Shown: positions 19,222 through 62,600 of the stretch, piece after piece
How the letters are laid out: each line of letters starts with the position of its first letter
Numbering within the stretch: position 1 is the first letter of the stretch
From: Pocillopora verrucosa
Taxonomy: Eukaryota; Cnidaria; Anthozoa; Scleractinia; Pocilloporidae
DNA length: 64,000 bases
Reading direction: 5' to 3'
Assembly (NCBI RefSeq): GCF_036669915.1
Contig: NC_089313.1
Coordinates: 283,585-347,584 of the forward strand
The notes under the pieces: generated by a model
Databases searched by the model: none
Told to the model about the DNA's origin: nothing
Seen by the model: the letters and a program-made list of their open reading frames with translations, nothing else
Translations under genes and position numbers: made by a program

Positions 19222-24791
<5,570 letters not shown>

Positions 24792-26830: not shown

Positions 26831-27045
26831 CTGCTTAATCTTTTCACTCCCAGGTTCTTAATATCAATTGTCTGCACTCTTTCAGACATTTCTGATAAGT
26901 GTAGTTCAGAGAACTTTTTGTTCAATCATACAATGTACTGTTGTTGATTTTTTAAAATTTCTCATCACCTTTCTGCTTGGAAATTTATGAATATTGTAAG
27001 GAGAAACATATATTTGGTCTCTCCAAGTGTGAAAGGGTTAAGCAG
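26831..27045. mobile_element. MITE-like repeat with short terminal inverted repeats
   Basis: The left end CTGCTTAATCTTTTCAC and the right end (complement CTGCTTAACCCTTTCAC) are inverted copies with two mismatches, 215 bases apart. There is no coding capacity. It resembles a small non-autonomous DNA transposon. Confidence 0.5.
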
Positions 27046-32344: not shown

Positions 32345-35300
32345 ATGTTGAAGAAGTGTTTGTGGTACTGGTATATATTTACCCTCAAGGTGTCATTGGT
32401 TTTACTTGTAATTGTTGTGTTTATTGGAGAGTTTGGATGTTTTCTATGGGCTTTTTTTACTTGGAGGATTCCTGACCAATCCAGAGATTCACTGAATTTA
32501 CTTCTCATCTCTGACTCACAAATCCCGGTAGGTCTACTGTACCAAAAACAACAGACAACTATGCTGAACATACACTGAATCATTTTATTATCTGAAGTTT
32601 GAATCAATTAGTCTTTTTTTTTGTCCTTCTATTCAGAACCACAACCTTGCATTTTTTATGAGCAGTTACATTTAGTGACTTAAGGCTTCTTCTCTCTTGA
32701 CATGGCTAATAGCACTACTTCCCCCCAAACAGTTAGTTCAGTTAGTTTGAAAACTAAAACCAACAACGTCACAGTCACTTATATTTTTTCCATGTTTCAG
32801 TCCAATGGTTTGTGTTTGATTTGAGTTGATTTTCCTTTGTTCTGATTGGCTGCAGGGTTTCATTTCTTGGTTTTGGTTTTGTGATACTTAGTAGAAATTA
32901 ACTCTAACAAAGCTCCTCCTTGGACCCTTTTTTTTCCTGTAAGGGATACAAGGAAGAACCTGAAGGAATTCAAGGATGTATAACACGTGTGGATACAGAC
33001 TGGTATTTATTCAAGGCTTTTTATCTGGCCTTGGCATCGTTTTCACCTGATGCTGTTATTCATTTAGGTTTGTTTCATGACCCCTTCTTCATTTTTACTT
33101 TTTAAGTCCTATGTGGGGTTGTATTGTTTTTTAATTACACATTTGGGTGTCTCAAGGAATGTGACCCAGTGTACAGTAAGACTTGTATGAAACAGACACC
33201 AACTTAATTCAGGACTTTTTCTTTATGTATTTTTAGTAACCAACTTGTATCCAACAGATGCAGACCTTTTATAAGTGTAATTGCAGACCTTTGATAAGTG
33301 TAACTGCAGACCTTTGATTAGTGTAACTGCAGAGCTTTGACAAGTGTAACTGCAGACCTTTGATAAGTGTAATTACAGACCTCTGATAAGTGTAACTGCA
33401 GACCTTTGATAAGTGTAACTGCAGACCTTTGATAAGTGTAATTGCAGACCTCTGATAAGTGTAACTGCAGACCTTTGACAAGTGTAACTTCAGACCTTTG
33501 ATAAGTGTAATTGCAGACCTCTGATAAGTGTAACCGCAGACCTTTGATAAGACTAGTGTAACAAGCCTTCCTTTTTTCTAAGGATACTTGCAATCATTTG
33601 TTTTAGTGGGACTTCACTATAGCTCAGGTTACATGTTAGGTAAAAAGAGGCCTATAAGAGAAGATTTTGTAAGAGAGCCAGTACTGTAGCAGTTGTCATA
33701 TAAAGAGGAAAATTTCACAGTCAAGCTTTCTATCACTACACAAATTGGTATGGAAAACCTTTATCAGAAAGACTACTTGTATTAAGTAGACACCAGTAAG
33801 CGTCATATGTGTTTCATGTGACTTTCCTGATGAAGCTTATCTCAGTAAAATGGTGGATACAAACAAATATACCATAAAACAAATATTTCAGTATGCTTTA
33901 AAGTTATTAATACTTAGATAGCTAATTTGTCTTTTTCCACTGACTTGGTCAGTCACTCCTCCATCCTTGGTTTTAACTAGATGAAAAAACTTCAAAATTG
34001 ATAAAATGTACATGACTGTGTGGTATCCTTATCAAATAAGATTATATTACACAGTTCTGCATGAATATCTGCCAACAGACACAAGAGGAGCTGTGTCATG
34101 GGTGCCCACTTCTAAATCTGATTTATTATTATTATTGTTCATTATTATGTCACTTTTTTTTATCTTGTGTGAGTCATATATGGTAATTTAGTTTTGACAT
34201 CTCAGGTGACATTTTAGATGAAGGATCAATTGCTACAGATGAGCAATATGAGGAGTATAAGGTAATAGACCCGCAGTATATCCTCTCATTCAGTTATATG
34301 ACAGCTTTGTCAGCTTCAAAATTGAACCATTCATTTGCCATAAAGAGATCTTCCCCTCCCAGCCCAGTATGAAAAAAGCAGAGGGAAAGGAGAGGGTTTG
34401 TATTATTGCTCTCCTCAATGCAGAGTAATGGGGCTTCACTCTTTGTATGGTCCCAAACAACTTAATTTTTTCATCAAGTATTAATTTATTAGTTTTGCTC
34501 TGTAGATGCCTTTGTGATTGATTTAAAAAATTATAAAATGGATAGTTACTAATTTTAACAATGTTTTATATCTTTTCTAGGCAAGACATGATAAGATTTT
34601 CCACACCTTTGACAGATCTGAAAGGATCTATGTTGCTGGGGACAATGACATTGGAGGTGAATGGAGTGATATCCTCACAGAACAAAAAACATTGAGATTT
34701 CAACGACACTTTGGTCCCATAAATGATGTGGTGAAACTGAAGTCTTTTCAAATAATTAAGGTATACTAGTGGAGACAGATTAATGTTGTTGTATATCAGT
34801 GGCAATTAGGAAGGGATGTCCTGTGTGATGTGCTAGTCTTGCTGTCACCAACGAATTTATGTCTATGGTAGTTCATTGTATTGGTTGATTATTGGATTGC
34901 TTGCCACATTAAGCAGCTGTAGCTCAGTAGCTAGAAAACCTTTTATGTGTCTTAAAGTTAAAACCAGGAGCACTGTGTCCTTAGGAGTACACATTACACC
35001 TGCAAAGTCAAGGGATCAGTTCCCCCAAGTATTTACTACTCCTGGAAAGCTATTTTTGTTTGATGTGTTTTCAATAAAGATCAAGATGTTAGAGGTTTTG
35101 AGGTTCAAGGAATGAAATTATCAGATAACCAGACATTGTTCAAGAGAGTGGCAGAAATGGAACCTTGGTCACTAAAGCAAAAATCAATATAAGTTTTGAA
35201 ATTATTTTAAAGTATGTTGTTTGTTTTGAATTTTTACAGATCAATTCAGCAAGTTTGTTAAGAAGAAAACCTTTTAGAGAGGAAAGAAAAATCTACAATA

Positions 35301-37700
35301 AAACTGTAGATTTTATCAATAATCTTTCTCCAAAACTGGACAAGGAGAAGATTTCCATTTTAGTTGGTCATGTTCCTATTGACGAAATTAGTGTAAAACA
35401 TGATGTTCCATTGCGCAAGGTAAGTTATTTTCAACAGGCAGATTCATCAAATACCAAACTGATCTTGCTTTAGTTGTATTGTTTCATTGTCGCCAGTTCA
35501 TACAGGATTTATGTAAGCCTTTTGATCCTTGTCAACCTTTGGAAATGAGACACCAAATTTGAATCCCTAAGCATGAATATTTTGTGACTTTTTCAGCAGT
35601 TTACCACTACTATACAAGTACTCTAGACTCAGGGTCAAGAGGTCTGGGTTCCAGACCTGGCTGGGTCAATGTGTTGTGTTCTTGGGCAGGACAAGAGGTG
35701 ATCTTGTCCTGGGGGTGATCTTACAATGGACTGTGATCCCATTCAGGGAGGAGAAATGTTAGGAAAATCAGGATAAGCACCTGCTGGTGGGGCCACAAGG
35801 ATCATGTACAAAGTTTACTGTTTTGCCTACACTAGTTTTGACCAATAATGTTGTAAATTCCTTCACGAATTGAAATTGTTTGGGAATCGCTAGAAAGTCA
35901 TGGTAATTGATTGTCAAAATTTTAATGTTTTAAACACAAGATTGTTTGTTTGTACATTGATGGTGAAGAGTTCTCATAGTTTTGTCTCTATTATAATGAT
36001 AATAATAGTAGTTTATAACAGCTATACTATTTTCCTTTGTTTTTTTACTTTAAGTTAATTCGAACTATGAAACCAACCTATGCGTTCTCAGGTCATCTTC
36101 ATGAGGTAAGTTCTATTTTTTGCCTCTTCATTTTTTTTTTAATACCAAGTGAATGTGACACCTCATTTTGCTTGAAGACTTAAAAATTTTAATATTTATG
36201 AATTTGGCAGCTTGTTCTCAATCGTTAAAGATTTATTCTCACATTAAAAGAGACTTAAAACAGAGGTTATTGTAAGCAGTAATCATGATGAGTTTAATTG
36301 TTTATTCCAGAGGAACTTTGGGTTAATTTATAAACATCTGAAATTGTTGTTGATTTGAAAGTGAAATCTTTGGCATCTTGGCATAAATTTTGTTCCTTTT
36401 AGAGACTTATATTAGGGTGAGGACTATGTGCATCAAGAGACTTTTATTTTGTCATATTTTCAGTCCCCCCTCCCTCCCCCTCCTCATTAAGCAGTCATTT
36501 GACCTAGAACTAATCTCACCATTTATGTTGCTTTTTAGCCAGCCACTGTTCAACATGAGTTCGGAATATTTACCTTTACAGAATATGTGGTGCCTACCTG
36601 CAGCTATCGCATGGGAACAAAAATGATGGGGGCAGCCGTGGCAGTTGTAGGTATGGTGTCAGCACCAACAAACCTCTGTCGCTATAGTGACTTTGGGCTT
36701 GATAAAAATGTGCACAGAGATGTGAGCCTTACTCAGAGGTGTTGGCTTCAAACTTTTGATAAAGAGCAAGAGTAAAAAAATTGATTTGGCTAATCACTGC
36801 TATATTCCTTGGTGTGAGGAAGGCATGATTTTAAGTTGTATCAATAGTATTTCAGCCAATATACCCTGTATGTTTTTGAGGTGAATCTTATGGCTGAAGA
36901 TTATTTCTTAATTTCTGAAATTTACAGGTGCAGTATGATTGTTTGCTAATATAATTTTGTAAGTCTGTAGGTCTGATAGGTATTTTAAAATAACTTTTTG
37001 CTTTACTTCAAGGTCATCGGGCTATGACATAATTATTTGAGTTGCTTGGAATGTAGGGGAAACCAAAGTGTGCAGTTTGACAAAAAGAAACAGAAAATAC
37101 TTGAATTATATCAGAGCAAACCAAAGAGGCAGAGAATGTTTAAGGGTGAAAAAGATTGACACAGACTGAAAATGAGGGGACAGCATTGCTGAGCTTCCTT
37201 AAACTGTGACATGTTTCTTTGAATGCAGGTTATCATTTTATCCATCTGAGACCATCCCTTGTTCTTTATACATTTCCTGAGGTGCTGACAAGGAGAAATT
37301 GTTTAACAATCAAGAGCTTCTTTTTTCTTGACCTTAATGTATGATTCAGGGGTAACACTGAGAGGATTTCTGCACTAGTCACTCTTAGGGATTAAAGGGC
37401 TTATAACTTTTTTCCCCACAAACCATGCATTTAATTTGTGTTTATTACAAGAGGATGTCCTTCTATTTTATGTCTATAGAAAATTTTTATTTTGTTGTTT
37501 CAGGTAATGATGGCTCCATCACATATTCCATTCTTCCTCTCCCAAGTCGATACTTATTTCTTCATGTGTACTTGGTGTCCTTGTGTGTCTCCCTGGCAAT
37601 ATCGCTACCTGGGTTCATGATATTTGTCATACAAAAGTTGGAGAAAAGACTTGTGGGCACAAAACATGACCTTGTAATAATGAAATTAAAGGATTTATGA
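32345..37700 (+). CDS. MPPE1: MPPE1/Cdc1-like membrane metallophosphoesterase
   Basis: Calcineurin-like phosphoesterase of the ER/Golgi membrane. The family (mammalian MPPE1/PGAP5, yeast Cdc1/Ted1) removes an ethanolamine phosphate from GPI anchors. Coding exons 32345-32527, 32944-33067, 34206-34261, 34581-34760, 35240-35419, 36055-36105, 36539-36650 and 37504-37700 give 360 residues. A membrane segment lies at about residues 12-34 (VSLVLLVIVVFIGEFG) and another near the C-terminus (LVSLCVSLAISLPGFMIFV). Metal-site motifs in order: SDSQIPG (D57, Q59), GDILDEG (about 103), AGDNDIGGE (about 140), VGHVPID and SGHLHEP (H255, H257). The first and third differ from the classical D-x-H and GNHD. Orthology to MPPE1 is inferred from topology and motif order; a separate Cdc1-like subfamily is possible. 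Exon 1 begins after a strong acceptor, so a 5'UTR exon is likely. Confidence 0.85.
33260..33562 (+). repeat. 23-bp minisatellite, 13 units, in MPPE1 intron 2
   Basis: The unit GCAGACCTTTGATAAGTG plus TAACT repeats head to tail. Twelve units fill exactly 276 bases (33260-33535), so the period is a strict 23. A thirteenth unit carries a short insertion. Units differ by one or two substitutions. Because 23 is not a multiple of 3, stop-free units read as open in several minus-strand frames, which explains the spurious frames here. Confidence 0.9.
35625..35805 (+). mobile_element. tRNA-SINE-like copy in MPPE1 intron 5
   Basis: Contains GGGTTCCAGACCTGG, resembling a Pol III B box, then GTGTTGTGTTCTTGGGCA, a core typical of invertebrate tRNA-derived SINEs. 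A block with ATGGACTGTGATCCCATTCA follows. A second copy lies at 62640-62920. The 5' tRNA part appears truncated. Confidence 0.5.
37280..37400 (+). repeat. Copy of the dispersed AACAATCAAGAG repeat
   Basis: AAGGAGAAATTGTTTAACAA, then TCAAGAGCTTC and GACCTTAATGTATGATTC, match the repeat split by the Penelope-like insertion at 21661-23033 and the reverse copy at 56530-56665. It lies in the last MPPE1 intron. Confidence 0.5.
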
Positions 37701-37939: not shown

Positions 37940-40900
37940 TTGCCACATATATCTTTGTTCTCAGCGCGTTAGTAAGAGCGTGATTAGTTCTGTTATGTGT
38001 GCAAGAGTCAAATTTACAGCTCTTTTGTGGGCAGAAAATATCCCCTCTGAATATTGAAACAATAGAATTTTGTTAATGAGCTTGAAACTCCGTTTGGCTC
38101 GTGGTTCCAACAAGTTACCAAAAGCTCATCAACGAATTTCTTTTATTTCAATATTCATGCGTTTAGATCTAAATGGAAAGGGGGAATTCTGGGACAATTT
38201 AATATACGTTAGAGCGTCATTTCCTTTGTTATGCGTGCATGCAAGTTACAGCTCTTTTGTGGGCCGAGAAAATCCCCTCTGAATATTGAAACCATAGAAT
38301 TTCGTTAATGAGCTTGAACACTCGATTTTGCTCGTGGTTCTAACAACTTACCAAAGGCTCATTAACGAATTTCTATTGTTATAATATTTACGCGTTTATT
38401 ACTCCGCGAAAAGGGGGAATTCTGCAATAATTTATAGCGTGTTAGGAAGAACGTGATTATCTCTGTTATGTGTGCAAGTGTCAAAGTTACAGCTCTCGTG
38501 TGACCAGAGAAAATTCCGTCTGAATATTGAAACAATAGAATTTTGTTAATGAGCTTGAAAACTCCGTTTTGCTCGTAGTTCCAACAAGTTGCCAAAGGTG
38601 TGCTGTTTTAATTTGAGAGAGAAGGTTTCAGACTAGAGTAATTCGAGTGAACTTTAATAAATGGCTTGGATTGCTGAAATAAAACGTATAACAAACACTA
38701 ATCTACTCATGAGAAACAGTATTAGCGGGATTAAGTCTGTTGCAGTCGAGATAAAAAGAGCTAAGTATCACAAGAACTTTAAGGTTATTCACTGAGTTAT
38801 GAAGGAGAGCAGTTTACCTCTAAAACTCGTTATAATCATACTGCGGCCATGATAATTAAAAGAGAATGTCTTTGGCGTGTCGTATGAAAAACTTTCATCA
38901 GAACTTCTTTTCTATTGTTTCAATATTCATGCGTCTATATCTCCGTAAATATAATTAATTCTGGGACAATTTCATATGCGTTAGAAAGAGCGTGATAATC
39001 TCTGTTATGTGTGGAAGTGTCAAAGTTATAGCCCTTGTGTGAGCCAAGAAATTCCCCTCTGAATATCGAAACAATAAAATTTCGTTAATGAGCTTGAACA
39101 CTCGATTTTGCTCGTGGTTCCAACAACTTACCAAAGGCTCATCAACGAATTTCTATTGTTTCAATATTCGTGCTTTAATATCTCTGTAAAAATGGGGAGT
39201 TCTAGGAAAATTTATAGCGTGTTAGAAGAAGCGTGATTAGCTCTGTTATGTGTGCAGCCATCAAAGTTACAGCTTATGTGTGGGCCGAGAAAATCCCCTC
39301 TGAATATTAAAACAATGAATTTTGTTAATAAGCTTGAAAACTCCGTTTTGCTCGTGGTTCCAACAAGTTGCAAAAGGCTCATTAACGAATTTCTATTGTT
39401 TCAATATTCATGCGTCTGTATCTCCGTAAAAATAATTAATTCTGGGACAATTTCATATGCGTTAGAAAGAGCGTGATAATCTCTTTTATGTGTGGAAGTG
39501 TCAAAGTTACAGCCCTTCTGTGAGCCAAGAAATTCCCTTCTAAATATCGAAACTATAGAATTTTGTTAATGAGCTTGAACACTCGGTTTTGCTCATGGTT
39601 CCAACAACTTACCAGAGGCTCATTAACGAATTTCTATTGTTTCAATATTCGTGCTTTAATATCTCTGTAAAAATGAGGAGTTCTAGGAAAATTTATAGCG
39701 TGTTAGAAGGAGCGTGATTAGCTCTGTTATGTGTGCAAGTATCAAAGTTACAGCTTTTGTATGAGCCAAGAAATTGCCCTCTGAATATTGAAACAATAGA
39801 ATTTCATTAATGAGCGTGAACACACGGTTTTGCTCGTGGTTCCAACAACTTACGCTCATTAACGAATTTCTGTTGTCTTAACATTCACGCGTTTACACAT
39901 TCACGCGAAAAGGGGGAATTCTGCGATAATTTATAGCGTGTTAGGAAGAGCGTGATTAGCTCTGTTATGTGTGCAAGTATCAAAGTTACAGCTTTTGTGT
40001 GGGCCGAGAAAATCTCCTCTGAATATTAAAACAATGAATTTGGTTAATGAGCTTGAAAACTCCGTTTTGCTCGTAGTTCCAACAAGTTGCCAAAGGCTCA
40101 TTAACAAATTTCTATTGTTTCAATATTCATGCGTCTGTATCTCCGTAAAAATGGGGAATTCGGCGACGATTTGAAGCATGTTAAAAAGAGCGCGATTAGT
40201 TATATTATGTGTGCAAGTGTCAAATTTACAGCTCTTGTGTGGTCCGAGAAAATCCCGTCTGAATATTGAAACAATAGAATTTGGTTAATAAGCTTGAAAA
40301 CTCCGTTTTGCTCGTGGTTCCAACTAGTTGTCAGAGGCTAATTAACGAATTTCTATTGTTTCAATATTCATGCGTCTATATCTCCGTAAAAAATAATTAA
40401 TTCTGGGACAATTTCATATGCGTTGGAAAAAGCGTGATTATCTCTGTTGTGTGGAAGTGTCAAAGTTACAGCTTTTGTGTGAGCCAAGAAATTCCCCTCT
40501 GAATATTGAAAAAACAGAATTTCGTTGATGAAATTGAAAACTCCGTTTGTCAAAGGCTCATTGACGAATTTCTATTGGTTCAATATTCATGTGTCTATAT
40601 CTCTTTTAAAAAAATGGGGAATTCTGGGACAAGCTTTAGCGCGTTAGTAAGAGCGTGGTCAGTTTTGTTTTGTGAGCAAGTATCAAGGTTACAGCTCTTG
40701 TGTGGGCAAAGAAAATCTCCCCTGAATATTGAAACAATAGAATTTCGTTAATGAGCTTGAACACTTGGTGTAATATTCATTCGTTTATAACTCCGCGAAA
40801 AGGGGGGATTCTGCGACCAGTTATAGCGCGTTAGCAAGAGCGTGGTTAGCTCTGTTCTATGTGCAAATGTCAGTTACAGCTCTTGTGTGGGCTGAGAAAA

Positions 40901-53600: not shown

Positions 53601-56600
53601 ATTTGAAAAAGATTGGCCATCTTTTCATCTACCTTTTCAATAAGATCATCAAGGCGAGGAAAACTTTCATTAAAGTCCTGAAAAAGATGAATAATAAGAT
53701 GGGATAGAGAATGACGTGCAATGACATATCCCAGCATCCTTAACTCGACTCTAACCTTGCATTATACTGCAAACAGGTAATGAGCATACTCAAACTTATC
53801 AGGTTGAAGTTATCTTGATCTTAGACCTAATTCCCCAAGCTAATTTAAAAGGAAATGTGTAGCAGCTTGAGGGGGGAATCTTAGGGGTTAAGAAATGAAA
53901 ATGTGAAATAGCAAGAGGCTAAAAAGTGAAACAACACTATATTCAGTGTGTAAAGTAACCTGCCCCAACAAGTAAAGCTCGACTGTTTGCAAACACAGGT
54001 AGAATCGACTGCAATAAAGCTACTCTAGTCTCCAGTGCCCTTCACATTTACTTTTCTTGTGAATAGCTTTTGAGCATTTTTCAAAATTGTATCTGTTAGC
54101 TCCAAGGGAACTGAGACTTATCAGAAAAAAGTTTTTTACAAACTGTTGTCCCACAAAAAACACACAGTAAGTCCTGAGTTAAACAAAGGTTATAACTAAG
54201 GAAAAACAAAGATTTGTGGTTCTTAATTCCCACTAGAGTTTGTCCAGTAGAATATTGCAACACACTGAAAAAGGACTTAGCATGTGCTGCATCCACACAG
54301 ATGTGAAAAATATCTGAAGAGTGAGAAAAAGTTATGGCTCCATGCTGGATACTGTTGTTAAAAAGGAAGCAGCCTTAGGGAACAACATGATAAAGCAAAT
54401 GCAGGATTTAAAAAAAATGCAGTTCCACAAATTTTTGAAGGTGCTATTATTAGGCTGGTGTTATGATTGACATGATCCCTCTACAGAATATTCAAGAAAA
54501 AATGCTCCTAGTTGTACCTGTCGGTAAGTACTGGAATTTTGTACTTTATCCTTAGCAGTCTGTATCACACCTTCCAGGTTATTCAAGGCAGTGTCAACCT
54601 CTTTCTTTAAACCCACTGCTTCTTTCATGGGTGTCTAAGGAACAACATAAAAAACTACTTCTTATAACATTATTATAATACATGAAATAAAAATTTTAAA
54701 CCAGGTCCTGATGTTTAGTGATATGAATAAAAAAATGATATACTATAAAAAATTATATCATATGAAAAATTATGTACTATAAAAATGATATATTATACAT
54801 ACTGATACAGGTCAAAAAAACATACAAACATGGTTGAGATGCGTTTGTTTCACAAATCAATTTAAGACATATTTTTATTAGCAACTGAGGACTTTTCCCA
54901 TTTTAACCCACCTAAACACTTAAGAGGTTCAAAGAATTCTTGAAAGCATCTGACACTCTCCCACTCCCCCCCCCCCTTGTTTAAGTAAGAAATGTAAACA
55001 TGGAATAAGTACTCTATTTCTTTCAGTGCTAACAAGTCAATCATACTATCACTGACTTTTCATATCAACTGGAAAATACAAGGTGAGAAAATTCAAAGGA
55101 TCCTTTGAAAAACAAACATACAAACACAAAGAAAAGAACAACAACAAGATCTTGACTTACACCTACATTATTTATACCTCTTGAAGTATAGAGTGCTATG
55201 AATGACATTGGGTTGATTAAAGCAAAAAAAACACTAAAAATTACTTCTTATCATTAGTCAATTTAGCAGGCTGCACAGTGAAATTGATTTATCATAGTAC
55301 ACACAGTAAATGATGACATATGATGACATAAAATGCAGCATTATCACTGAAATTTTGTAATTACCTGTGAGTCGTAAGTCTTGCTGATATTGTTTAAACC
55401 CAAAGCATAGCTGACATTTTCCAAAACTCTGTTGGACTCATCCACAATTGAACTAAATTTACCAAAGAGTTCATCCAGAGTTTTGTTCACATCCATAACT
55501 TTGCTTAATAAACTTGTTGTGTCATTCAAATATTCTTTTGCTCTCTCGATAGTAGCCATCACCAGTTCACGCTCTTCAACCATTGTATTATTTGCAGATT
55601 CAAAGTCTCTTTCCAATAGTTCCTTTAAGATTTCTTCAGCTTTTTCTAACAACAAAGTTTGGTTTGCCTTTTCATTCTTTAAGCTTTTAGCTATTTTCTC
55701 TGCCATAACTATGATGTCTGAAATGGTAAAAAATTATTTGGAATAATAGTAAATACAAAATATTAAGAAATAGGGTAATAGGTTGAAAAGTTTCCAGATT
55801 TTTCCCTTTTTTTTTTTATTCAACTTCTAAATTGCAATTTGCAAGTCATACATCCTAAAGGCAACAAAATGTTCTTAACTAACAAGAACTAAAAGGCTAC
55901 TTACCATAAGTTCGATTAAGGGCCTTACGAATTTCTTCTCCTAATTCAAGAGCTTCTTCCTTTGTAGACGTGGAAGTTTCCAAAGCCCTTTTTGCTTGGT
56001 CTGTTATCATCATTACCATTGTTGTTACATTGTTTACTGTTTCTTCACTACTGTCTGTCCTCTTAATGAGATTGTTATCCTCATCAACATCTCCAGAGCT
56101 TGTGTTTGCAGCTGCTGGGATCAAATAGTTAGCCCACAGAATCAACAAGTATTACTACCTCTTGTAAACCTCTTAGAAGACCACTTTGCAAACAATAACA
56201 GGAATAAAATTTGAGGGCAGAAGAGGGCTGGGGAAGCTGGTTTGCTACCAACTAGAAATATTGTGGATGCTCGCTCAAACATTAACGTGTTGCAGCAGCT
56301 ATAAGCTATTAGATTGATGGTGGACGTACAATAACATATGCATATATCTCATAGAAAGAGGGGGAAGGGGGCAGTTATTGAAAAAGAGAATGAAGTAATG
56401 GTAAAATTGAACTCATGGAATTTACAAAAGCCTGTATCAGAAACACAACTTTTTTCACTGAAAATATTCATTAGACAGTAAATATCCCAAGGTAAAATGA
56501 GTGTAACGTATTGATATCAATGTGTTATAACTGATTAACCCTTTAACTCCAGAAAAAATGGCAGGCCTCTAATTTCTCCTTATAACATCAACCTTGACTT

Positions 56601-59600
56601 AAACATAAAGGTCATGAGAATAAAGGAAATGATCATTATTTTAAGAAGCTCCTGATTGTTAACAAATACTTCTGTTAAGTACCACAGGAAATGTAAAGAG
56701 GGCAGCACATGGGCAGCACAGAGAACATGAACACCAATGTAAGGATGCTAAAAGTTAACAAATTATCTATGTGTAAATGTTAACTGTATGATGATCAAGA
56801 TAATAGAATAGATTAGATGTGCAGAATTATTGTTGATTACCTGGGTCACAAGCATGTTTTGCAAAAGATAACTGTTTCTTAGTGAGTGCTTCATCATAAA
56901 TCTGAAGACAAGCAACTCGGCCTTTAAAATAGAAGGGTAGTCCTTCCACACTACCCATCAACACAAATTCACTTTCAGTGGCAAGCTCAATTACACCAAT
57001 ATCGGCTTCATCCTGCAACTATTCATTAACCCAAAGCCTTGCTTTACCACTGTCATAATCATATGTAGCAGCAACATGGTTCCATGTGTTTGGAGGCACT
57101 TCATCACTTTTCAGAGTTGTAATGGCTCTCTGATTTCTATCACGATTGAAAAACCTTAGCTCAAAAATGTCCCTGGTGAGCCAAAGATTAACTAATAGCT
57201 AATAGCTTGTGTATTACTCTGATGAGAAAACAACATGAAATCTAAAGATGCAAATTACCATAATTAGTATTGATCTGTGTGATGATAACATATTTGACTT
57301 TCCAACAGTTTCCAACATGTCAGATGGGTGATACAATTGTCTAATTAAGGTTTGGCATTGACTGGACTTGAGAAATACAAGAGTCTCTGAAGATTTAACT
57401 TCTCTTTTTTAAGGTTTATTTAAACAGGAATTTACAATTGCACTGAGTATGATGATTCTTACCATTTACCAATGACATTCCAACTACCTTGGACAGTTCT
57501 TCCATGGTTGAATTATATTCATTAGTTGGTGGAATTAACCTGATAGTGAGTAATCATATGTTAGTAGTGACCCAACACTCTACTCAAAGGGTATTGCAGC
57601 TCTCAGGAATAGCCTACATGTACTTTGCAGTTTTGGGAAATTGACTCTTTATACCAATAATTCTCAGGTTCAAAGGTTCAGCATTGCTTATAAGAAGGCA
57701 GCAATTCTTCCTGCACAACTGTTTGTGATAGTATGTGTTTTTTGAATCAATATTTATTTGATGATGTTTTTACCATCTTCATAATTGAAAAATAAACCTT
57801 AGCTATATCACTATAAGCCAGAGCCAAAAGAAAGGCAAAGGAAAATTTCTGCCAGTTTGTAATCATCTTTTACATCAGAAAAAACAAAGCTTGCTTTTCA
57901 AGTACCTTTGCAAAGTTTCATTTAGGTCTGAAAATCGTCCTTCAGCAATAATTCCAGCTGTTCCCTGTTTTACAGCCTTGAGAGCCAAGGAAAGATTACG
58001 GTCCAGTTCAGTGGCTGTTTTCAGGAGACGTCCAACACATTCACCACAATATTGACAGCCCTCTGAAGTTAGGATGTAATTCACAGGACAAATGGTACAG
58101 TTCCCTCCTGGCTTACAACACTGACCAGTATTCACATCGCAAAAGCCGAACAAGTTGTCTTCTCCCTTATCACAGGTGCATGCTGAAGTAAAATATTTTA
58201 ACACATTGTTTGAATAAGAGACATAGACAGACACAGACCTTAACTAAAACTTAAATTACTAGTACAGAGTAGTTATAAAAATGCTCTGAAGCATGGTATA
58301 TTTTTAGGAAGATAAACTGAACTGGTACTTCCAGCAGTTCTGACCTCCTCATTTTGATAACAATAAGCATGTAAATACACTGAAACATGCAGAAGTCAAA
58401 ACATTCATAGCTTATGCAATGTAACCCAACATCTCAAGACAAGAAATTGACCCAAAATAAAACTAAAAAGAATAGAGACTGAGGTACTTACCACGACAGC
58501 CATTCTTTGTGTATTCAAAGTACCCTGCCTTACATCTGTCACACCTCCTTCCCGTCACGCCCTCTGGACATTCACACTGACCTGTTTTCACATCGCATGA
58601 TGTTGATAGTGATGCTGGCGCACAGTCACAATCTTCACACCCCAAACAGCTGTCAAAGTTCCAGGTATTGGGCTAAAAATTAAGTAGAAAATAGCCAGAA
58701 TTTTTCTCTTTCTCTAGAGTTGTGAATTACTGATTACACCAGCATACTTCATGGAATTAACTGACTGATTACCTTGCAGCTGTCACAGCTTTCCCCAATG
58801 ACATTGGGTTTACACATGCAAGACCCAGTGGTATGATTGCAAACTGCAGTTACAGTGCCACAATCATTACAAGCACATCTTGCACAGTTCTTTGCAACAA
58901 CTGCATCACCATAGTAACCATTCAAACAGCGGTCACACTGGTCTCCTGTTGCAGTATTGATACATTTGAGACACTCTCCTGTCAGGGAGTCACAACTTCC
59001 ATTGACGTTGTAATCAATATTACCACTGCAACCACACCTCTTACAATAGTCACCACGATCAGAAGGGTCACCATAGAAACCATCAGCACACTTGTTGCAC
59101 CTCTGTCCAACATATCCTTCTTTACAAGTGCAAATGAGGTCATCGACAGAATTCAGGGAGCATTCAGTTGCAAAGCTGTTTGACACTATTCCTAGGGGGC
59201 ATTCACATATATTGCAGTCCAGTGGGGTGCCTGTGGTGGCATCACCATAGAAACCAGGTTCACAGACTTCACAGTTTGGCCCTAAAACATAAACCAGAAA
59301 AATTATTTGCTAGTTTAAAGATATTAAAAGGGATTTCTGATTAATAATCAACTTTGGCAATACAGGACACTTGGGTTTCCTAAGACCCTATACTTTGATG
59401 TTATACTAAAAAAAACAAAAAAAACAGTCCAATCATCTCGAACACCATAATTTGGTTTTATCAACTGAGTTGATAATGTAAAGTGGTCATGTGAAGAGTT
59501 TAAAAGCTGAGGTTTCCAACATTAGCCTTTCATCAAGGCAAATAATAAAGGCTTAACCTCAAAATTTTAGCTTTAAAACTCTTCTTGGTAGTCATATAAC

Positions 59601-62600
59601 ATTATCAGCTCTGTTGATAAAACCAAATTATCTTCTTATACTCCCCCACGGACACAGCGCCACAGATTCTTTAGAAACTTAGCCCCTTTATTCAATTATC
59701 TTGAACCCTCTTTCCATACCAAAACTCTTTTGATCCCAAATTATGTTAAATGGTGTATATTAGAGATTCAGCGCACTACTCATTATGATCAACCTTACCT
59801 GTGGTGTTGTGCAAACAACTGTAACATTCTCCACTTTCTCCATCACAGTCCTCTGAGTGATCAAAACAGTTGCAGCGTACACAGGAAGTGTTATCTGGAG
59901 CTCTAGTATAACCTTTTCCACAAAGCTGCAAATTACAACACAGAGCGATCATTGCAAGACAAATCACTGTGATCACTTTGTTGACATCTAGAATGGTTGC
60001 TCCTCAGTTTAAGAAAACGCATTATTTGTAATTTGATTCACATGTAAGAGAAGCTGGTAGTATGAATGATGATAATAAAAAAATTTAACAATACACATTC
60101 CCAAGGTGGCTCTTTTTGTCCATTGTTTCCAGGTGGAACTAGAATTTGGAATTTTGTTTTTTGTGGCAGGGGGAAAACCTGAGTACCCAGACAAAAACCA
60201 TCAAGTAAGGACGAGAACCTATAACAAACTCAACCCACATATGATGCCAGGTCCAGGAATCAAATCTCAGCCACAGTGGTGGGGGGAAGGCCATCTCACT
60301 ACTGTGCCATCCCATTCCCCCAAGTAATGCAGACATGACACATTTGTAAGAGCACTCTCCCATCTCAGACAAAGCATTGTAGTGAAGATTGAAAATCTGG
60401 ACCTATTGTTTTCCCCGGTAGAATCAACTACTGGGTTTTGTTCTATTCAATTTAATCCTGTCACTCCTATAGGTGCATTGCATCCTCACAAAAGAAATAA
60501 TTTCCTATCAATTCAAAATGGTATGTGCAGACAGACAGACTGTATTCAAGTCTTGCTATTATAAAAAAAAAAAAAAGGGTGTCTTGTTTTAAGTATATTA
60601 CTAGCGCAACTTGGCTTAGTGACTTTGTATCTCACCTCACAGGAATCTCCTGTAGCTTTCACTGGACATTCACATTTTTCTACACTCATTGCTCTCATTG
60701 CTCCGTCAACAGGCTCATCTACTGCAACATCCATTTCAACATCACTGAGCCTGACGTCTGAAACCACTGTGCTGTATGAGGCCCTCAGCTTCAGCGATTT
60801 TATGTCATGAAAAACTGACATGAAGTCATCCCTGCTTACATTGGATCCACTGGTATCCTCCCAAAGATACTATAAGTGTCAAAAGCAATATATTGTTATG
60901 GCAACTATAAATTATATACCCTCAGAGGTAGCAAACAGAAAAACTTGAAATGACTTCTGACAACATTTGACCACAAATTGCCATTGGGTGTTCACACTCA
61001 CCTCCAAAAACTGTGCCTCAATCGCTGATGTCTGTCCTGGAGAAAGTTCCAACTGCTTTTTGAACAAGAGCACTTTGCCATTTTTACCCTACAGCAAGAA
61101 GTAAGATTATTGCTTCCAACATTTTAATGGACAGTTTACAAAATTAAGACTTACTGATTGTTAAAATTTCAATAGGAATTGTCATAAAAATTAAATTCCC
61201 CCTCCCCCAAAAAAATTGTCAAAATTGTTCTTATTAATGTACACATATGCACAGTCTCAAATAACAAATATAGCGTGTTACTATACACACTGCCTTCACT
61301 TTCAGCTATGGTTAAATCCATATTACACTGAGTTCTATCCACAATCATTAATAATGGAGTAGATTGTAAGTTCAGCATCAATAAGAATTGACAAATGAGA
61401 CCTAATAACTTAATGCATAACAAACTGGACACTAGATTCCAGTCAAACTCCCCACACAGTCATTGCATAGTGTTTTGAGTGCAATAAAGACATCTTATCT
61501 CCATCTTTGAACTCAGGAAAACTGTAACAAAAACTTGCAACTATCATAACTCTAAGAAGTGATTACCATGTAACTTCTATAAGTAATATACATACACTAT
61601 AAAGCAAACAAGTGATAGGAATACCCAAACTTTTCAGGGAGAGGTTTTTAAATCTTGATATAGCACCAAATTCTTGTGACTAATTTACAAGGAAATGTAG
61701 AGCAATTAGTGGGAAGAATTAGCAATCAGATCTTGGGAGTTAAGGATTCAGGGGTCACCAAAAATAGATCAGGATTCCATCCAGAGGGAAGTGACACTGA
61801 CCAGAGGTAAGTTTTGAGAAGGTGAGCCCTGAACTAATCTTATGTTCTAGCTTGAAAAAGATAAAGTGAGCAAGTACCTCAATCACAATGTCAGGTTTCA
61901 TTGTCAAGACTGGTGAACTTTCTCCTTGTGGTACTTCATAACTGATTGTGTACATCAGTTTGCCACCATAAGATGAAATCTAAGATACACAACAAATCAG
62001 TTGCTTTTCAAATACTTCACTTGATGAACTTAGTTTACAGAGCACATCACTGAATTTCAAACTTTCAATATGTACATATCATACATAACCATGGTTTCAT
62101 AAATGAAATAGTATATTGTGATATTACAGGAAAATAACTTTGACTATAAGGAACATTCCTTTGTTTGCATCAGAGTAAAACATGGTTGTGTTGTGGATGA
62201 AATGCCAAAGATCAGCTCCTTTTCACAAGCAACTAAGATGTTGCAGTCTCATGTACCTTTTGTCCAAGGTATTCCATGGGTGCTATCCAGTAGATTGGTT
62301 TGCCTTTTTCATCTCTTTGGCTGCTTACTGAGGCAGAGAGTTTAGTTTCATCAATTTTAACCACAATAGCTGGACTGTTCTCTAACTTCCAATTGTCCAT
62401 GGTATTAATTTTGGACCTTTAAAGAAAATAAAACTGCATGTCATCCACGCAAGAAAGAAATGTAAAAAGCATTACATTATTAAGTTATAAATATACTGCA
62501 TGTTAATACAAAAAGGTTTTTTTCAAGGTACAAATTGAAACAGTATTGTGCTAAAAGGCTTTCTTTATAGTTCTATAGGCATCTGCCAACATTGCTTTGG

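Follow-up and report, generated by a model that had tools for sequence, protein, structure and literature searches.

The laminin alpha-type gene and the intron between exons B and C

The minus strand of the window, by which the whole analysed stretch of 64,000 nucleotides from Pocillopora verrucosa (contig NC_089313.1) is meant, carries a laminin alpha-type gene, as judged from Pfam matches, reading frame and position. Between about 58.5 and 63.9 kb, Pfam recognises pieces of LE repeats (PF00053) and of domain IV (PF00052); the LE repeats extend to 63861, close to where the window ends, and the gene begins beyond it. The LG domains (PF00054/PF02210) are found by Pfam 3' of the presumed coiled-coil exons, down to about 42 kb. 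The exons between the LE and LG parts are assigned to the coiled coil by frame and position and are presumed; joined from A to E, they match no laminin family in Pfam, where just DUF745 (E = 0.03) and DUF7018 (E = 0.092) appear, and nothing in the PDB at 0.01. Exon A alone is unrecognised by Pfam, and the exons directly upstream of it match PF00053. The need for exon B follows from the translations, since A-B-C-D is open over 305 amino acids and A-C-D meets a stop after 101. By eye, the acceptor of exon C is a tandem NAGNAG at 56111-56116, both sites of which keep the frame.

Table 1. Features in and around the intron between laminin exons B and C (positions in the window)
Feature	Position	Strand	Description and basis
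Laminin exon A	57906..58181	-	By eye, transition from LE repeats to coiled coil; ends in phase 2; translation and frame
Laminin exon B	57463..57539	-	77 nt, phases 2/1; required for in-frame A to C
Putative LamG_3-like exon remnant (the block)	56841..57172	-	332 nt, phases 2/1, single in-frame TAG; PF13385 match, frame and borders
In-frame TAG stop	57019..57021	-	178 nt upstream of the block donor
Dispersed repeat	56531..56735		In the intron of the block, downstream of it; diverged copies near 23022-23107, 26872-27045 and 37228-37322
Laminin exon C	55905..56114	-	Presumed coiled coil; starts in phase 1; frame

Elsewhere in the window, tandem arrays with a unit of about 241 bp lie within 37963-40765 (37963-38598 and 38909-40765), and a further array at 33259-33551 (23-bp unit, 12.7 copies) is open in two minus-strand frames. 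The segments 21707-21892 and 22768-22953 have near-identical translations in inverted orientation and flank, by eye, long retroelement-like ORFs; two ORFs scanned from this 21707-22953 region gave no Pfam match at 0.001. An Rfam scan of 54000-60000 returned nothing at the gathering threshold.

Borders, phases and domain identity of the block

The intron between exons B and C holds a block flanked by an AG at 57174-57173 and a GT at 56840-56839, with the borders CTCACCAG/GG and CAG/GTAATC. Its frame, read from 57171, contains 110 codons with one TAG and no frame break, and the remaining two forward frames contain 20 and 4 stops. The entry phase 2 and exit phase 1 are those of exon B, a match whose naive chance is about 1 in 9 and which thus carries little weight. 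At 7 of 9 the donor score equals that of exons A and B, but a donor of this grade is common by chance, since 20 of the 399 GT sites in 54000-60000 score at least 7, a count that takes in real donors; the acceptor tract is 62.5% pyrimidine, and the five laminin acceptors compared range from 56 to 81%. Re-reading the sequence confirmed the coordinates, splice borders, phases and lone TAG claimed in the sequence-only reading, which had further described a LamG half-domain broken only by that TAG; the readable frame with one stop stands, but the block covers roughly the final two thirds of the domain profile and not half.

Specifically, the block read with an X at the stop matches Laminin_G_3 (PF13385) with E = 8.3e-12 and 45.9 bits, above the curated cut-off of 27.6 bits, over profile positions 49-150 of 151. 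This match rules out a chance open frame as the origin of the block. Taken separately, the stop-free pieces reach 3e-06 (27.9 bits) and 0.054 (14.1 bits), and the first also shows sub-threshold matches to Baculo_8kDa (0.076) and Pentaxin (0.15). The block does not contain a complete PF13385 domain, which would be 151 positions in an open frame. The match runs from four residues before the acceptor to residue 101 of the 110 in the block, so that the domain edge roughly coincides with the exon edges, as fits the C-terminal exon of a module.

PF13385 is the sole family that Pfam reports for the read-through frame at E of 1 or less, with neither PF00054 nor PF02210 among the matches, while of eight ORFs taken from the LG region of the gene five match PF00054/PF02210 (one of them below cut-off), three have no match, and PF13385 is absent from all eight at E 0.01. 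By profile match, then, the domain of the block is assigned to Laminin_G_3 (pentraxin/ConA-like), another family than the laminin LG domains. Derivation of the block from an LG domain of the same gene is accordingly rejected, the more so because the window holds no second copy of the block, the best other matches having E = 0.42 (tblastn) and 0.55 (blastn).

The foreign domain type would also suit an exon belonging to another gene that is nested in the laminin gene or spans it. Against this, Pfam, run in three frames on the minus strand of 56115-57904 and in three frames each on the introns 58182-58491, 59281-59796 and 54637-55364, found neither the first third of the domain nor any further PF13385 piece, although a short N-terminal exon could escape such a search, and the absence of another block copy in the window points the same way; of all the readings weighed, this is the least probable.

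Relatives of the block in the PDB are weak by sequence, two being found at E of 0.1 or less, namely 4dqa, an uncharacterised protein (0.004), and 8sl1, pappalysin-2 (0.047). A structure prediction made without relatives had a mean pLDDT of 39.4 and was set aside. Scans of contig collections for the block and the laminin exons found no relatives, which says little, given that these collections are viral and prokaryotic.

Splice forms that would include the block

Spliced in place of exon B, the block gives a translation (A-LamG-C-D) that ends once 50 residues of the block have been read, at a stop 178 nt ahead of the following exon junction, and spliced after exon B (A-B-LamG-C-D) it shifts the frame and brings a stop at codon six, counting the junction codon. 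Both forms stop early and neither yields a complete LamG domain; hence a LaNt-like protein ending in a folded LamG is not to be expected from either. Under the NMD rule, a stop more than 50-55 nt upstream of an exon junction leads to transcript decay, and both forms are predicted to be NMD targets.

The sequence-only reading had put forward a LaNt-like laminin short arm ending in a LamG fragment, made by splicing in the block instead of exon B. Such a product would be a secreted short arm with 50 LamG-derived residues at its end. The phases 2/1 fit such an exchange, and A-LamG is open for 50 codons past the junction codon, but the fragment lacks the start and end of a domain, so that a folded LamG is not expected, and many exons follow the junction before which the stop lies, whence the predicted decay. 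Moreover, the domain is Laminin_G_3 and not a laminin LG, its first third is missing, and the LaNt route is another one: the passages on LaNt alpha31 in PMC9788559 describe retention of an intron coupled with intronic polyadenylation. With the block in it, a transcript would resemble LaNt alpha31 in ending in the short arm or the early coiled coil, and would differ from the mechanism in those passages in needing exon exchange and in being NMD-prone. LaNt proteins combine an alpha LN domain with LE repeats; of these the window shows the LE repeats of this gene. On this evidence the LaNt-like reading is not upheld, and a secreted product of this kind is very unlikely. A broader version, in which an exon-shuffled, lineage-specific exon takes the place of exon B in part of the transcripts to give either a truncated short arm or a dose-lowering NMD transcript, as a LaNt-like switch by a different route, is decidedly unlikely too.

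The early stop, which appears upon inclusion with or without exon B, and the intact borders are also what would be seen in a conserved poison exon, whose regulated inclusion would introduce the premature stop, trigger NMD and thereby tune the dose of laminin. Such a role needs no preserved LamG frame, and this function is regarded as unlikely. Alternatively, the stop itself may be an allele or a sequencing error in an otherwise active exon, as its being the only one in an otherwise intact frame could suggest; yet the exon, read through, would still encode an incomplete domain and would displace exon B, which makes such an explanation highly improbable.

A probable captured and decayed exon

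The block is probably an exon of a LamG_3 module captured from another gene, its coding function having since been lost. Specifically, a copy of the C-terminal exon of a pentraxin/ConA-like module, splice borders included, would have entered the laminin alpha intron that separates exons B and C and would subsequently have ceased to code; occasional use by the spliceosome would then produce NMD-target transcripts and slightly reduce the output of laminin. A captured and decayed exon had been the fallback of the sequence-only reading and is the best-supported one here, given the PF13385 match, the intact borders, the lone stop, the first third not found nearby and the early stops upon inclusion. 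We infer the origin in another gene, the insertion as DNA rather than as an mRNA copy and the lack of function; an mRNA copy is argued against because the domain match ends at the intron borders with no neighbouring exon joined to it.

Codon usage retains a coding character, with +26.7 bits in the block's own frame as opposed to +6.6, 0, -17.7, -15.5 and -8.7 in the other five, under a model trained on 1949 codons of other ORFs in the window that leaves stop codons unscored. When each stop costs 20 bits, the block still places within the top 2.2% among minus-strand stretches of 332 nt, taken every 10 nt across the window and including coding ones. In simulated neutral drift of the 109 sense codons, the mean number of stops is 0.59, 1.16 and 2.13 at 0.05, 0.1 and 0.2 substitutions per site, so that a single stop without a frame break is compatible with little to moderate drift; at most one stop still has a probability of 0.14 at 0.4 substitutions per site, and the stop count therefore provides no date for the capture. 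At a position next to the stop, the glycine of the VNG turn in 4dqa corresponds to glutamate in the block, and pappalysin-2 has an alignment gap there; this difference, a single residue set against one aligned relative, is a weak sign of relaxed constraint. Counting against decay are the otherwise well-kept frame, the coding-like codon usage and the absence of a frame break, together with the phases equal to those of exon B and the two intact borders, which are expected of a functional alternative exon as well.

As for the mode of insertion, no inverted repeat beyond chance was detected in 56115-57462, since 38 of 100 Markov-generated sequences contained one at least as strong as the best found there. 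The arms 56280-56312 and 57192-57224 match best on the inside and not at their outer ends, and with inverted repeats of the best strength seen so common by chance, capture by a transposon with terminal inverted repeats was rejected. The core of these arms is a 16-nt motif found inverted on both sides of the block (57192-57207 and 56297-56312); with up to two mismatches it occurs in the window at these two sites only, and at least two sites arose in 1 of 100 shuffles, a figure to be read in light of the motif having been chosen after the fact.

LamG-type modules usually lie between phase-1 introns. With exon shuffling and pseudoexons the block shares the state of an exon that sits with its borders inside a foreign intron, and with Laminin_G_3 proper it shares the profile, while differing from it in covering positions 49-150 only and in its in-frame stop. 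In its passages on domain gain, PMC2926785 names domains between introns of symmetric phase as the candidates for intronic exon insertion, from which the block, being asymmetric (2/1) and broken, departs; the paper attributes less than 10% of high-confidence domain gains in animals to intronic insertion, and a capture of the type proposed would thus be uncommon but of a known kind. Laminin and LamG passages of a sea anemone matrisome paper (PMC12549020) do not mention such an exon, and among the matches listed from the open-access literature no title describes one.

If the block is a decayed capture, it would offer a snapshot of failed exon shuffling, in which a domain exon with intact borders resides in a host intron and is barred from the protein by a stop and by the asymmetry of its phases. 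If it is used, it would represent an independent route to short laminin products through exon exchange.
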